From Variovorax sp. HW608 (GTDB taxonomy: Bacteria > Pseudomonadota > Gammaproteobacteria > Burkholderiales > Burkholderiaceae_C), in the NCBI RefSeq assembly GCF_900090195.1, contig NZ_LT607803.1, positions 1 through 64,000 on the forward strand: a stretch of 64,000 nucleotides of DNA. Reading direction: 5' to 3'. The number at the start of each line of letters is the position of its first letter. Position 1 is the stretch's first letter. The notes under the pieces were generated by a model. The model had not been told where the DNA came from. It was given only the letters and a program-made list of their open reading frames with translations, and made no database searches. The translations under genes and the position numbers were made by a program. Positions 154-39,994 of the stretch are shown here, piece by piece.

Positions 154-212
154 TGTGGATAAGTTTTTGACAAGTTAGAATCGAAGGCGCATCGCGGGTG
201 CGACTATCCACA
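154..212. promoter_or_regulatory. DnaA boxes in the dnaA upstream region
   Basis: A perfect DnaA box lies at 154-162 in the reverse sense (TGTGGATAA), and a one-mismatch box, CTATCCACA, at 204-212. They flank a TTGACA hexamer (167-172) that could be a -35 element, though no good -10 follows at 16-18 bp. Boxes across the dnaA promoter fit DnaA autoregulation, a well-established feature of dnaA genes. The boxes are seen; the regulation is inferred. Confidence 0.7.
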
Positions 213-1672: not shown

Positions 1673-1902
1673 CTGTCAAAGCACAACTCTGGGGAAAGTC
1701 TCGGCACAAATGACGGGTTGTCCACAGAGCCGGCGCGCGAACGAATGTTGTTCGCCTCGCGAAGACAGCATCGAAGCGCGGCTGCGCACACCTGTTGCGG
1801 GGCGCCAAGTCCTTGTCGCGGAAGCGGAAAATCGCACTGTCCACAGTGCGGTGCGTCCCTTATCTACTACTACCAATCTGAATTAAAGAAATAAAGGAAG
1901 AG
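1673..1902 (+). other. oriC: oriC in the dnaA-dnaN intergenic region, with DnaA-trio unwinding element
   Basis: This gap holds DnaA boxes TTGTCCACA (1718-1726) and CTGTCCACA (1837-1845). A 12-bp GC-rich spacer follows the second box, then CCCTTATC and three CTA repeats (1864-1872), which read TAG on the other strand, and then an AT-rich stretch (about 1875-1897). Box, GC spacer, TAG trios and AT-rich DNA in this order match the basal unwinding system known from other bacterial origins. A small ORF at 1638-1886 is a by-product of the conserved sequence. A second, inverted copy of the whole block lies at 31313-31542. Confidence 0.85.
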
Positions 1903-1909
1903 GTAAGAC

Positions 1910-5775
<3,866 letters not shown>

Positions 5776-5912
5776 TCGAACGCAAGCGATCGATCATCGA
5801 TCGCCCGCCGCTGTCACAGGGCGGGAACTGCGCGTAAACGCTATTCCTAGCCCGACTCTTGCTAAGCAAAATCTCCGGCGGATTTGACGCCATTCGAGCA
5901 AGAGGACAGCAA

Positions 5913-31006: not shown

Positions 31007-31201
31007 TTATTGCGCTTTATAGCCGGCGTTTTCGATGGCCACGATGATGTCCGCGCGCGGGTGTTCGCTGACGACGTCGACATGACCCGTTTCCAGGTCG
31101 ACCGTGACCTGTGCCTTGGGATCGATGGTCTGTACCGCGTTCTGCACCAGATTGGCGCAATGCCCGCAGCTCATGCCGGTGACCTGGAATTTCTGGCTCA
31201 T
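31007..31201 (-). CDS. copZ: CopZ-like heavy-metal-associated protein
   Basis: This 64-residue soluble metal-binding domain has the Cu(I)-binding loop GMSCGHC at residues 9-15 and the usual ferredoxin-like alternation, ending ENAGYKAQ. Such proteins pass copper to P-type ATPases or regulators. The ATG at 31201 is preceded by aaggag, so the longer in-frame start at 31261 is rejected. No copper ATPase gene is nearby. Its upstream region adjoins the second origin-like block. Confidence 0.9.
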   Translation of the reverse strand: MSQKFQVTGMSCGHCANLVQNAVQTIDPKAQVTVDLETGHVDVVSEHPRADIIVAIENAGYKAQ

Positions 31202-31312: not shown

Positions 31313-31542
31313 CTCTTCTTCTATTTCTCTTATTCTGATTAGTAGTAGTAGATAAGGGTCGCGCGCGACTGTGGACATATCGATTTTTCTGTTGCGCGAC
31401 AGGGACTTGCAGTTTCCCGTTCACTGTGTGCAGCCGCGCTTTCGCGGCGTTCGCCGAACTCGAACAACTCCGGAAAGGGCGATCGGCCTGTGGATAACCC
31501 ATCGCTTGTGCCGCAACTGTCCCCAGGGTTGTGCTTTGACAG
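31313..31542 (-). other. Second oriC-like sequence, inverted copy of the dnaA-dnaN origin
   Basis: Read on the minus strand this block aligns without gaps to 1673-1902. Hand-counted identity is 163 of 230 positions. Landmarks keep identical offsets: the CTGTCAAAGCACAAC start (31542-31528), a perfect DnaA box (TGTGGATAA on plus, 31489-31497), GCGCGGCTGC (31439-31430), a second box (TGTGGACAT, 31370-31378) and CCCTTATC followed by CTA repeats. It has four TAG trios (31340-31351) and an AT-rich flank (about 31313-31339). The 440-bp gap 31202-31641 holds this block, the copZ upstream region and the promoter side of the next two-component system; no gene is seen. Confidence 0.85.
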
Positions 31543-31641: not shown

Positions 31642-32331
31642 ATGCGAATCCTCCTGGTTGAAGACGACGCCGTGTTGCGCACCGTGATGCTGCGCAGCCT
31701 GGGTGATGCGGGGCACCGCGTCGATGTAGCGGCGAGCGTGGAAGAAGCGGAGCACCTCTGGCGGGTGCAGACCTTCGACGCCGTGCTGCTCGATCTGAAT
31801 CTGCCGGCCACGCCGAGCCCGACCAGCGGCCTGGCCAGCGGCTTGACGGCATTGCGGCATGCGCGCCAGCGCGGCGATCGCACGCCGGTCCTGATACTGA
31901 CCGCCCGGGACCGCACCGAGGAGCGCATCGCCGGCCTGGATGCGGGCGCCGACGACTACCTCGGCAAGCCTTTCGATCTCGCGGAGGTGGAGGCGCGTCT
32001 TCGCGCGCTGGTGCGTCGCGCCCAGGGCACGGAGGACATCTCCACCCTCGGACGCCTGCGGCTCGACCGTCGCGCGCGGCGCTTCGGCATCGGCAATGTG
32101 CCGCTCGATCTGCCGGCGCGCGAGTTCGAGGTGCTGTGGGAGCTGATGAGCCCGCCGGGCCGCACCATCAGCAAGCGCGAGCTGTCGGACAAGCTCTCGA
32201 GCTTCGACGACTCCCTGGGCGACAACGCGCTCGAAGCCTTCATCTCGCGCCTGCGCAAGAAGCTGGTCGGTAGCGGCGCGGCGATCCGGACCTTGCGCGG
32301 CATCGGCTATCTGCTGGAAGCCGAAGTGTGA
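31642..32331 (+). CDS. OmpR-family response regulator (TctD/QseB type)
   Basis: The 229-residue regulator has a receiver domain (MRILLVEDDAVLRTVMLRSL, phospho-acceptor in DAVLLDLNLP, conserved ILTARD and YLGKPFD) and a winged-helix DNA-binding domain ending in IRTLRGIGYLLEAEV. It overlaps the kinase gene by 4 bp, forming a two-component pair. Its promoter must lie inside or beside the origin-like block ending at 31542, so DnaA binding could influence its expression; this is inference. The target genes are unknown. Confidence 0.88.
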   Translation: MRILLVEDDAVLRTVMLRSLGDAGHRVDVAASVEEAEHLWRVQTFDAVLLDLNLPATPSPTSGLASGLTALRHARQRGDRTPVLILTARDRTEERIAGLDAGADDYLGKPFDLAEVEARLRALVRRAQGTEDISTLGRLRLDRRARRFGIGNVPLDLPAREFEVLWELMSPPGRTISKRELSDKLSSFDDSLGDNALEAFISRLRKKLVGSGAAIRTLRGIGYLLEAEV

Positions 32332-35858: not shown

Positions 35859-37805
35859 ATGCTGTATCCCGAAGAATTCGATGTGATCGTTGTCGGCGGA
35901 GGCCATGCCGGCACCGAAGCGGCGCTCGCATCCGCCCGGATGGGCGCCCGCACGCTCCTTTTGACCCACAACATCGAGACGCTGGGGCAGATGAGCTGCA
36001 ATCCGTCGATCGGCGGCATCGGCAAGGGCCATCTGGTCAAGGAAGTCGATGCGCTGGGTGGCGCGATGGCGATCGCGACGGACGAGGCCGGGATCCAGTT
36101 CCGGGTGCTGAATTCGAGCAAAGGTCCGGCGGTGCGTGCGACGCGCGCGCAAGCCGACCGCGTACTCTACAAGGCCGCGATCCGGCGCCGGCTGGAGAAC
36201 CAGCCGAATCTCTCGCTTTTCCAGCAGGCCGTGGACGACCTCATGATCGAGGGCGATCGCGTCATCGGCGCCGTGACGCAGGTTGGGATCGCTTTCCGCG
36301 CCCGCACCGTCGTGCTGACCGCGGGGACCTTCCTCGACGGCCGCATCCATGTGGGGCTGGACAACTACCAGGCCGGCCGGGCGGGCGATCCGCCCGCGGT
36401 GAGCCTGTCGGCACGTCTCAAGGAACTCAAGCTGCCGCAAGGGCGGCTCAAGACCGGCACGCCGCCGCGTCTCGATGGCCGCACCATCGATTTCTCGAAG
36501 TGCACCGAGCAGCCGGGCGACGGCATGCCGGGTGGGGCAGGGCCGATGCCGGTCTTCAGCTTCATGGGTCGCGCGGACATGCATCCGCAGCAGATGCCGT
36601 GCTGGATCACGAACACCAATGCACGCACGCACGAGATCATCCGCTCCGGCTTCGATCGCAGCCCGATGTTCACCGGCAAGATCGACGGTGTCGGTCCGCG
36701 CTACTGCCCGAGCGTGGAAGACAAGATCAATCGCTTCGCGGACAAGGAAAGCCACCAGATCTTCCTCGAGCCCGAGGGGCTGACCACCAACGAGTACTAC
36801 CCGAACGGGATCTCGACCAGCCTGCCGTTCGACATCCAGTTCAAGCTGGTGCGTTCGATGGCCGGGTTGGAGAACGCCCACATCCTGCGTCCAGGCTACG
36901 CGATCGAGTACGACTATTTCGACCCCCGCGAGCTCAAGAGCAACTTCGAGACGCGCGCCATCCGGGGTTTGTTCTTCGCCGGGCAGATCAACGGCACGAC
37001 CGGCTACGAAGAGGCCGCGGCTCAGGGGCTGTTCGCCGGCATCAACGCGGCGCTCCAGTGCAGGGGAGAGGCGCCTTGGCTGCCCCGGCGTGACGAGGCC
37101 TACCTGGGCGTGCTGGTCGACGACTTGATCACCAAGGGCGTGACCGAGCCGTACCGGATGTTCACGAGCCGGGCCGAATTCCGGCTCCAGCTTCGCGAAG
37201 ACAACGCCGACATGCGGCTGACCGAGGTCGGCCGCAAGCTCGGGCTGGTGGACGATGCCCGCTGGGACGCTTTCTCGCGCAAACGCGACCTTGTTTCACG
37301 TGAAACAGAGCGGCTGCGTTCGATCTGGGTGAATCCGCGCAATCTGGCGGCCGCCGAATCCGAACGGGTGCTGGGTAAGGCGATCGATCACGAATACAAC
37401 CTCGGCGATCTGCTGCGGCGCCCCAATGTGAGCTACGAATCGCTCATGTCGCTGGACGGCGGCAAGTACCGCTCGGACGAAACGCTCGGCGAGACGGAAA
37501 TCGAGCAGATCGAAATCGCCGCCAAGTATTCCGGCTACATCGACCGCCAGCACGACGAAGTGGAGCGCGCCGCACACTTCGAGAGCCTCAAGCTGCCGGA
37601 CGATCTGGATTACAGCCAGGTCAAGGCGCTGAGCATCGAAGTCCGGCAAAAGCTGGCGAAGCACCGCCCCGAGACCTTGGGCATGGCATCGCGCATCTCC
37701 GGCGTGACGCCGGCGGCGATCTCGCTGCTGATGATCCATCTTCGCAAGGGTGGACACCGGGCACTCCTGCGCGAAGCAGCAGCCGAAGCGCAGTCCGACG
37801 AATGA
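35859..37805 (+). CDS. mnmG: tRNA uridine-5-carboxymethylaminomethyl modification enzyme MnmG
   Basis: With MnmE, this FAD enzyme makes the cmnm5U34 modification in tRNA wobble positions. The 648-residue protein starts [22 protein letters not shown] (FAD dinucleotide motif) and has the MnmG signatures [25 protein letters not shown] and [18 protein letters not shown]. The C-terminal helical domain recruits MnmE. The ATG at 35859 is chosen because the in-frame ATG at 35826 adds an unconserved stretch. A perfect parS site is embedded in the coding sequence. It overlaps rsmG by 4 bp. Confidence 0.97.
37292..37307. promoter_or_regulatory. parS: parS site 1, inside mnmG
   Basis: TGTTTCACGTGAAACA is a perfect 16-bp palindrome identical to the consensus chromosomal parS bound by ParB. 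It sits in mnmG codons for VSRETE, 3.3 kb before parB. ParB loads here and spreads, and ParA then segregates the origin region. Confidence 0.95.
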
Positions 37806-38440
37806 GCCAGAAGGAACAGCTGCGCCGGGGCGCCGAGGCACTCGGCATCGCGCTCGGCGGCGAACAGGCGGAACGGCTCCTGGCGTACGGAGACCTCATC
37901 CTTAAATGGAACAAGGTCTACAACCTGACCGCGCTCCGGGATCCAGCGGCCGTCCTGACCCATCATTTGCTCGACAGTCTGGCCGCCGTCGGTCCTCTCC
38001 AGCGCCAGCGGGGTGGGGCGGCCAAGCTGCTTGACGTGGGCGCGGGCGCCGGATTGCCCGGCGTCGTGATCGCGATTCTTCGGGGCGACGTCCAGGTCAC
38101 CTGCGTGGACGCGGTCGCGAAGAAGGCGGCCTTCGTCCAGCAAGTGGCGTCGGAATTGGCGTTGCGAAACCTGCACGGGCTGCATGCCCGGGTCGAGGCG
38201 CTGACCGGCAGTTACGACGTCATCAGCTCACGCGCCTTTTCGTCCTTGCCTGATTTCGTGCTCGGATCCGTTCATCTTCTGGCGCCGGACGGCGTCTGGA
38301 TGGCGATGAAGGGCAAGGTGCCGAACGACGAAATCGCCCAGCTTCCGCCCCAGGCCGAGGTGTTTCACGTGGAACAACTGCTCGTTCCGGGGCTGGATGC
38401 CGAGCGCTGCATCGTCTGGATGCGAAAACCTGCCGGTTGA
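37802..38440 (+). CDS. rsmG: 16S rRNA m7G527 methyltransferase RsmG
   Basis: RsmG methylates N7 of G527 in 16S rRNA; loss gives low-level streptomycin resistance in other bacteria. The 212-residue protein has the N-terminal helical cap ([22 protein letters not shown]) and SAM motif [17 protein letters not shown], followed by [15 protein letters not shown]. The start overlaps the mnmG stop (ATGA), the conserved arrangement. A one-mismatch parS lies near its 3' end. Confidence 0.97.
38361..38376. promoter_or_regulatory. parS: parS site 2, inside rsmG
   Basis: TGTTTCACGTGGAACA differs from the parS consensus at one position. It lies 1.07 kb from the first site and 0.75 kb before parA, inside rsmG codons for VFHVEQ. 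Paired parS sites near parAB are common in proteobacteria. Confidence 0.88.
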
Positions 38441-39124: not shown

Positions 39125-39994
39125 ATGGCAAAGATCTTCTGCATTGCGAACCAGAAGGGCGGCGTCGGCAAGACGACGACCACGGTGAATCTGGCTGCCG
39201 GCCTGGCGAAGGTCGGACAACGGGTCCTGATGATCGATCTCGACCCCCAGGGCAACGCGACCATGGGCTCCGGCATCGACAAGCGGCAGCTCGAGACCAC
39301 GGTGTACGACGTGCTGCTCGAATCGGCCTCGGTCGCCGAAGCGCGGGTGAGGGCCGAGAAATGCGGCTACGACGTGCTGGGCGCAAACCGCGAGCTGGCC
39401 GGGGCAGAAGTCGAAATGGTGGCGCTCGACCGGCGCGAGAAACGCCTGCGCACTTCGCTCGCGGCCGTCGGCGCCGAGTACGACTTCATCCTCATCGATT
39501 GCCCCCCGAGCCTGAGCCTGCTGACGCTCAACGGCCTGTGCGCGGCGCATGGCGTCATCGTGCCCATGCAGTGCGAGTACTTTGCGCTCGAAGGGCTGAC
39601 GGACCTCGTCAACACCATCAAGCAGGTCCACGCCAACCTCAACAAGAACCTGCAGATCATCGGCCTGCTGCGCGTGATGTTCGATCCGCGCATCACGCTG
39701 CAGCAGCAGGTCAGCGAGCAACTCAAGGCGCACTTCGGCGAGAAGGTGTTCGACACCGTCATTCCGCGCAACGTGCGGCTCGCGGAAGCTCCGAGCTACG
39801 GCCTTCCGGGCGTGGTCTTCGATCCGCCGGCCAAGGGCAGCCAGGCTTTCATCGCCTTCGCAGAAGAGCTGGTGCGCAAGATGCCGCCGGCCAGTGCCAT
39901 GAGCTCCGATGCCTCGGCGCCCGCCGTGCCAACGCCGATGGACCCGCCGCCGGTGACGGTCCATGCACCCGAGGAAACACCGGAATCCCCCTGA
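39125..39994 (+). CDS. parA: Chromosome partitioning ATPase ParA
   Basis: ParA is the Walker-type ATPase that, with ParB bound to parS, drives origin segregation along the nucleoid. The 289-residue protein starts MAKIFCIANQKGGVGKTTTT (deviant Walker A with the signature Lys), then LMIDLDPQGNATMGSGI and DFILIDCPPSLSLLTLNGL. The last roughly 30 residues are a Pro/Ala/Ser-rich extension (SSDASAPAVPTPMDPPPV), unlike the short tail of typical ParA. parB follows after one inserted gene. Confidence 0.96.
   Translation: MAKIFCIANQKGGVGKTTTTVNLAAGLAKVGQRVLMIDLDPQGNATMGSGIDKRQLETTVYDVLLESASVAEARVRAEKCGYDVLGANRELAGAEVEMVALDRREKRLRTSLAAVGAEYDFILIDCPPSLSLLTLNGLCAAHGVIVPMQCEYFALEGLTDLVNTIKQVHANLNKNLQIIGLLRVMFDPRITLQQQVSEQLKAHFGEKVFDTVIPRNVRLAEAPSYGLPGVVFDPPAKGSQAFIAFAEELVRKMPPASAMSSDASAPAVPTPMDPPPVTVHAPEETPESP

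Follow-up and report, generated by a model that had tools for sequence, protein, structure and literature searches.

Comparison with relatives suggests an origin relocation in progress in Variovorax sp. HW608

Comparison of the Variovorax sp. HW608 chromosome with its relatives suggests that its replication origin is partway through a relocation, in which a newer copy appears to have taken over and the old one has been kept. The window analysed here is a stretch of 64 kb at the start of a single-contig genome of 7,733,565 bases (label G000). It carries one oriC module between dnaA and dnaN (copy 1) and a second, inverted module (copy 2) 29.6 kb from the first. In our preferred reading, to which we assign a probability of about 0.7, copy 2 is a complete oriC that was inserted in this lineage and now acts as the main origin, the ancestral origin has been retained as copy 1, and the chromosome is at the two-copy stage of a relocation of a type that recurs in the family. 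The two copies, the insertion, the constraint on both modules, the strand-bias shift and the family pattern were each computed from the genomes.

Bacterial chromosomes normally carry a single origin, which makes it a long-standing question how that origin can relocate while the cell stays viable. An intermediate seems to exist here in living species, surrounded by relatives that have an empty site, the old site only or the new site only.

Two oriC modules on one replicon

Copy 1 and copy 2 align without gaps and are identical at 163 of 230 positions, the count that a sequence-only reading of the window had given. When all offsets on both strands of the 64-kb window are compared, the mean is 59.6 matches (sd 6.6) and the runner-up reaches only 92. 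No third copy was found in the 7,733,565-base contig by BLAST (E up to 0.001) or with R1, a sequence profile built from 38 related oriC copies (E up to 0.01; its stricter filters may lose weak matches). One replicon carries two complete modules, since both lie on the single contig. Each holds two DnaA boxes, a GCGCGGCTGC block, a CCCTTA stretch, a DnaA-trio tract and an AT-rich tract. The features of the window are as follows.

154..162, minus strand: TTATCCACA box upstream of dnaA
262..1641, plus strand: dnaA (NCBIfam TIGR00362, 559.5 bits, above cut-off)
1673..1902, plus strand: copy 1 (site A), oriC module in the dnaA-dnaN interval (profile R1, 160.9 bits)
1718..1726, plus strand: first DnaA box of copy 1, TTGTCCACA (from the sequence)
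1776..1785, plus strand: GCGCGGCTGC block of copy 1 (from the sequence)
1838..1846, plus strand: second DnaA-box-like site of copy 1, TGTCCACAG
1864..1875, plus strand: DnaA-trio tract of copy 1, three CTA trios and a broken fourth (CCA)
1910..3016, plus strand: dnaN (NCBIfam TIGR00663, 318.9 bits, above cut-off)
3157..5775, plus strand: gyrB (NCBIfam NF011501 and TIGR01059, above cut-off)
31007..31201, minus strand: gene for a 64-aa heavy-metal-associated (HMA) domain protein, left of copy 2 (Pfam PF00403)
31313..31542, minus strand: copy 2 (site B), inverted oriC module in the interval flanked by the HMA-domain and response-regulator genes
31340..31351, minus strand: DnaA-trio tract of copy 2, four intact CTA trios
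31369..31377, minus strand: second DnaA-box-like site of copy 2, TGTCCACAG
31430..31439, minus strand: GCGCGGCTGC block of copy 2 (from the sequence)
31489..31497, minus strand: first DnaA box of copy 2, perfect TTATCCACA
31642..32331, plus strand: gene for an OmpR-type response regulator, right of copy 2 (Pfam PF00072 and PF00486)
37293..37306: parS-like site inside mnmG (pattern GTTNCACGTGNAAC)
38362..38375: parS-like site inside rsmG (GidB) (pattern match)

The DnaA boxes stand in a fixed register, with the same offsets in both copies and conservation across the 38 aligned copies. The coordinates within each copy also bear out the earlier claim that both boxes, the GCGCGGCTGC block and the trio tract keep identical offsets. 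That claim had been joined by another, that conservation is concentrated in these elements, and this too agrees with the alignment: with column conservation graded over 68 other copies, copy 1 and copy 2 are identical at 75 of 80 columns in the class of 95% and above, at 48 of 61 columns with 70-95% conservation, and at only 33 of 82 columns below 70%.

Copy 2 had further been credited with the stronger box and with four trios against three. This is true of the window's genome, where the perfect box is one of four TTWTNCACA sites in 464 kb, but that box is peculiar to this genome and the two sister species that share the pair (G019 and G021) have TTGTCCACA at this place. All three species share the broken fourth trio of copy 1, which is absent from the 15 further dnaA-side copies listed. 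In the available text of PMC8287927, three DnaA trios are the minimum for activity, and copy 2 has four and copy 1 three intact ones. The same text uses a box-to-trio spacer of 0-16 bp as a search rule for the basal unwinding system. In copy 1, 17 nt separate TGTCCACAG (1838-1846) from the first CTA (1864), a count that may overlook a weaker box nearer to the trios.

Copy 2 lies 4.3 kb ahead of mnmG-rsmG, the two genes that hold the parS-like sites. The calls at 37293 and 38362 follow the motif GTTNCACGTGNAAC, which we take to be the parS pattern. A ParA-family gene (39125-39994) is located beyond these sites, and the distance to the first of them is about 6 kb from copy 2 and about 35 kb from copy 1. 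Selection for nearness to parS (6 kb) is weakened as the cause of the copy 2 site, because in the other two-copy clade the additional copy lies beyond dnaA, on the opposite side. KOPS-like motifs are too few for a polarity test.

Origin positions among relatives and the arrival of copy 2

A set of 61 genomes of the genus yielded 58 with a profile match and 56 with a dnaN match; the 55 with both were scored. Nine have the dnaA-dnaN copy alone (A only). Three, which are the window's genome, G019 and G021, also have the inverted copy 30 kb downstream (A+B), six have A plus an upstream copy (A+C), and one has the upstream copy with a weak remnant at dnaA (G057). The largest class, with 28 genomes, has an inverted copy 27-75 kb downstream and none found at dnaA (B). 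Two genomes have a copy 5-7 kb downstream, and in six the copies lie exclusively on other contigs. In total, 18 of the 55 genomes keep an intact dnaA-dnaN copy. The gap between dnaA and dnaN measures 39-100 bp in 17 named Variovorax contigs without the module and 264-286 bp in seven that keep it.

The distal copy is the only match in 17 of the 28 B genomes, and so distal modules seem able to serve alone. The distal sites differ by their neighbours. In the window's clade these are the HMA and regulator genes, and in the paradoxus group the copy lies beside a CreB-like regulator. Another site, immediately upstream of orthologues of the gene at window position 5859, recurs and holds the only oriC match in four genomes (G053, G028, G058 and G036).

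Several further arrangements were observed in the genus. In one genome a stretch of 2.7 kb (G001:C36:129787-132444) has a tandem array of five oriC-like copies, three of them strong and two weak, and these are its only matches found. Members of the paradoxus group (G038, G048, G046 and G016) have a further oriC-like copy that is more diverged and lies, among different neighbours, 331-358 kb upstream of dnaN. Extra oriC-like copies on other contigs were identified in G007, G009, G016, G017, G049 and G051.

The family was sampled with one genome from each of 100 genera, of which 96 gave a match (including weak ones, down to 29 bits, and several draft genomes) and 95 also had a located dnaN. The scorable genera comprise 43 with a single copy at dnaA, one with a tandem pair there (G122), one with a dnaA-side and a far copy (the window's genome), 27 with copies only elsewhere on the dnaN contig (one or two also on other contigs) and 23 with copies only on other contigs. 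An intact dnaA-dnaN copy is therefore kept in 45 of 95 genera, and 50 of 95 have no match there. More than one copy is present in 25 of the 96 genera, often as close pairs with spacings from a few hundred bases up to 10 kb, and draft relatives may hide others. Judged by these positions, oriC seems to move often in this family, and the window's genome seems to be a two-copy intermediate.

The sequence-only reading had proposed a search for the pair in relatives, and copy 2 is indeed present in both sister species, in the same order and orientation and on one contig each. Its presence in three separate genomes leads us to reject an assembly artefact. In these genomes the gap between the HMA and regulator genes is 406-448 bp and includes the module. 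Both neighbours were recovered in seven of the 12 A and A+C genomes (G002, G024, G027, G013, G008, G052 and G005), where the gap is 118-236 bp and has neither box nor trio. In four of them (G002, G024, G027 and G013) the flanks align with those of the two-copy genomes on both sides of the insert. Because relatives have this short empty site between the same neighbours, synteny identifies copy 2 as a derived insertion of about 0.3 kb in this lineage. We rejected an island or plasmid remnant, since the insert is small, lies between two chromosomal genes and has no called gene of at least 60 aa; by the same features copy 2 does not look like an origin brought by a mobile element.

A tree of dnaA, dnaN and gyrB (FastTree) places the window's clade as sister to A+C genomes G055, G044 and G002 (support 1.00). 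It falls within a larger clade (1.00) whose members are of the A, A+C and C types, at a distance from the paradoxus group; the support of some inner nodes is weak. The window's genome has an empty upstream site. Trees built from the 230-bp copies fail to resolve, and AU tests on a tree with 59 of the 74 copies of the first tree (most extra and other-contig copies being left out) rejected none of the groupings of the window's own copy 2: with its own copy 1 (p 0.45), with upstream copies (p 0.74) or with paradoxus-type distal copies (p 0.58). Copy 2 may have come from copy 1, from an upstream copy or from another distal copy, all of which are compatible with the trees.

The three two-copy species differ at 21-25% of fourfold sites, which provides a scale for constraint. 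Among them, the 80 conserved columns change at 0-1 positions for copy 1 and at 1-4 for copy 2, and the 82 variable columns at 11-18 positions for copy 1 and at 17-30 for copy 2. The variable columns of copy 2 change about as fast as fourfold sites or faster, and its trio and AT-rich tracts are kept in all three species. This contrast between columns indicates that both copies are maintained by selection in the three species, copy 1 more strictly. The slower evolution of copy 1 in this clade counts against our preferred reading, as it does not look like decay. The sequence-only reading had argued for selection on origin function at both places rather than a recent duplication. Selection at both places is supported by the constraint on both copies. 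Synteny marks copy 2 as derived and does not support the view of it as simply an old second origin, and the AU test neither demonstrates nor rejects a recent descent from copy 1.

Strand bias and the copy in use

A move of the origin from site A to site B reverses fork direction over the intervening genes. We therefore compared orthologous genes one by one at fourfold sites in eight of the nine A, four of the six A+C, 12 of the 28 B and all three A+B genomes. For 15 shared genes between the sites, the leave-one-out residual is positive in seven of eight A and all four A+C genomes, and negative in all 12 B and all three A+B genomes; the exception is A-only G040, with a slightly negative value (-0.007). 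Fourfold T/A skew is +0.066 in A, +0.067 in A+C, -0.010 in A+B and -0.022 in B. The A+B value is lower than the A and A+C mean for 19 of 22 genes (sign test p 0.0009) and lower than that of the four A+C genomes for 20 of 23 (p 0.0005), where these p values are a guide only, as they assume independent genes and neither genes nor species are independent observations. Two A-only genomes nested in an otherwise distal-copy clade (G026 and G056) carry the A signature, which indicates that the bias tracks where the origin lies and not the clade.

Copy 2 is probably the main origin, with copy 1 mostly passive, because the intervening genes have the bias of genomes with a distal copy only and not that of genomes with a dnaA-side copy only. 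Which copy fires, how far copy 2 dominates and what copy 1 does are points that we infer from such patterns. Some of the comparisons temper this reading. A and B separate as predicted in only 12 of 16 genes of one gene set. Two control genes downstream of copy 2 are higher in A+B than in both other classes, which counts against the reading, and a larger set of five such genes reveals no consistent drop. Four upstream control genes give mixed differences between A and B.

The GC-skew check that had been proposed beforehand gave a curve too noisy to place the origin: fourfold GC skew of the genome itself (464 kb) indicates no sensible position. Fourfold T/A skew prefers 54 kb (residual 420.0), followed by 31.4 kb (423.2) and 1.8 kb (431.3). 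The orientation of the genes between the two sites, mostly on the minus strand, is weakened as evidence for copy 2, given that the A-only genome G005 is oriented alike.

Regular firing of both origins, with forks converging within the 29.6 kb in many cycles, would be in keeping with two complete and constrained modules, and also with dnaN, which adjoins copy 1, keeps an A-like bias and deviates the opposite way (+0.126 against A). However, the half of the interval adjoining copy 1 should then look A-like, and among genes at 5-16 kb the A+B genomes are below the A and A+C mean in eight of 10 and below the four A+C genomes in nine of 10. This shift speaks against equal firing, and so does the loss of an intact fourth trio from copy 1 in each of the three species. 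We consider regular firing of both unlikely.

We give even less credence to the idea that copy 2 is a neutral duplicate heading for loss and that the strand-bias shift is lineage drift, which we regard as very improbable. Multiple copies are common in the family, and control genes for the bias are few. Nevertheless, copy 2 spares its conserved columns relative to its variable ones in the counts given above, and genes upstream in the two-copy genomes are unshifted (-0.013 and -0.009 in two of the three).

Under another account, copy 1 would still be the origin and copy 2 would be an oriC-derived site for DnaA control, serving as a titration site or as a DnaA-activity locus similar to datA or DARS. 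These E. coli loci have DnaA boxes without an unwinding element and influence which nucleotide DnaA carries. The perfect box in copy 2, its position in a divergent promoter region and the more diverged copies hundreds of kb away in some relatives would fit such a function. Arguing the other way, copy 2 has trios and an AT-rich tract, which titration does not need and which three species have kept, the strand bias of the intervening genes is of the B type, and comparable distal copies are the sole match in many relatives. This dampens our enthusiasm for a control site, which we find improbable.

The second two-copy clade offers a parallel. Its six A+C genomes have a direct second copy 34 kb upstream of dnaA (site C). 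This independent upstream copy is located between genes for an SPFH-domain protein and malic enzyme (G055, G057, G002, G024 and G023); G057 has it too, but at dnaA shows no more than a weak remnant of 19 bits. Residuals for the upstream interval range from +0.024 to +0.049 in all six A+C genomes and C-only G057, each above all seven reference genomes (-0.013 to +0.019, with a mean near zero by construction). Genes are shifted as predicted in 18 of 25 cases (p 0.005), including 10 of 13 in the half adjoining the upstream copy and eight of 12 in the half adjoining dnaA (p 0.15, not significant). T/A skew over the interval is +0.002 in A+C, -0.007 in C, -0.171 in A, -0.107 in A+B and -0.034 in B. 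Four genes beyond the upstream site differ between clades as well and form a weak control. The second two-copy clade shows a matching strand-bias shift.

If copy 2 is indeed the main origin, the following sequence of events could be envisioned. A second complete oriC would have entered the divergent intergenic region between the HMA and response-regulator genes. DnaA would load on the boxes of copy 2, extend along the trios and open the AT-rich tract. The leftward fork would then cross gyrB, dnaN and dnaA, and so copy 1 would be replicated passively in most cycles. Copy 1, the presumed ancestral dnaA-dnaN origin, would persist under selection with its broken fourth trio, serving either for DnaA binding or as an origin that is weak or kept in reserve. 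The chromosome would represent a long-lived two-copy stage of a kind of relocation that is repeated in the family. More tentatively, and with some doubt, we speculate that an old oriC is long kept as a conserved reserve (dormant) origin, and that rounds of duplication, takeover and loss account for the roughly half of genera that have no dnaA-side match.

Relation to known origins

Placing oriC beside dnaA by default is a common habit. If the matches elsewhere are origins, this default is wrong for about half of the sampled genera of the family. The short length of the copies (about 230 bp) makes the coexistence of two oriC modules, the identity of the firing copy and the role of the quieter copy directly testable.

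The oriC of E. coli adjoins mnmG/gidA, away from dnaA. It and the Caulobacter origin are settled states of an oriC away from dnaA. Both resemble the condition that we propose for distal-only relatives, in which a single oriC is not beside dnaA, but the window's genome has both copies. The Caulobacter oriC adjoins hemE (PMC4403523).

Bipartite origins, as described for Bacillus subtilis and Helicobacter pylori in the available text of PMC4285127, likewise have two DnaA-box regions near dnaA. There a spacer gene, usually dnaA, splits the parts, one part has the unwinding element, and the whole spans up to about 2 kb. We rejected this model for the window, where the copies are 29.6 kb apart and both have trios and an AT-rich tract.

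Two autonomously replicating origins have been described for Pseudomonas aeruginosa (Yee and Smith 1990 and Jiang et al. 2006, as cited in PMC4403523). That chromosome similarly has two origin-capable sequences, only one of which is essential in the laboratory according to this text. The present case adds relatives with the old site, both sites and the new site.

Putative double origins on bacterial chromosomes were proposed earlier in DoriC (Gao 2015, PMC4403523), and so a paired arrangement, which the sequence-only reading had not known as described, is rare but not unprecedented. The inverted pair itself was not found described in open-licence PMC papers, as represented by the openings of their abstracts. 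The DoriC cases are similar in that two oriC-like regions, one beside dnaA, were found by sequence and the second has no assigned function. They are single genomes, picked by clusters of DnaA boxes and by switches of disparity curves near dnaA, parB or hemE. The window's genome differs in having alignable copies of one module, present in three species and accompanied by an empty site, measured constraint and a test of strand bias. What is added to the known prediction of two origins is thus a series of relatives with the old site, two sites and the new site, together with the empty site and a sister clade that offers a parallel.
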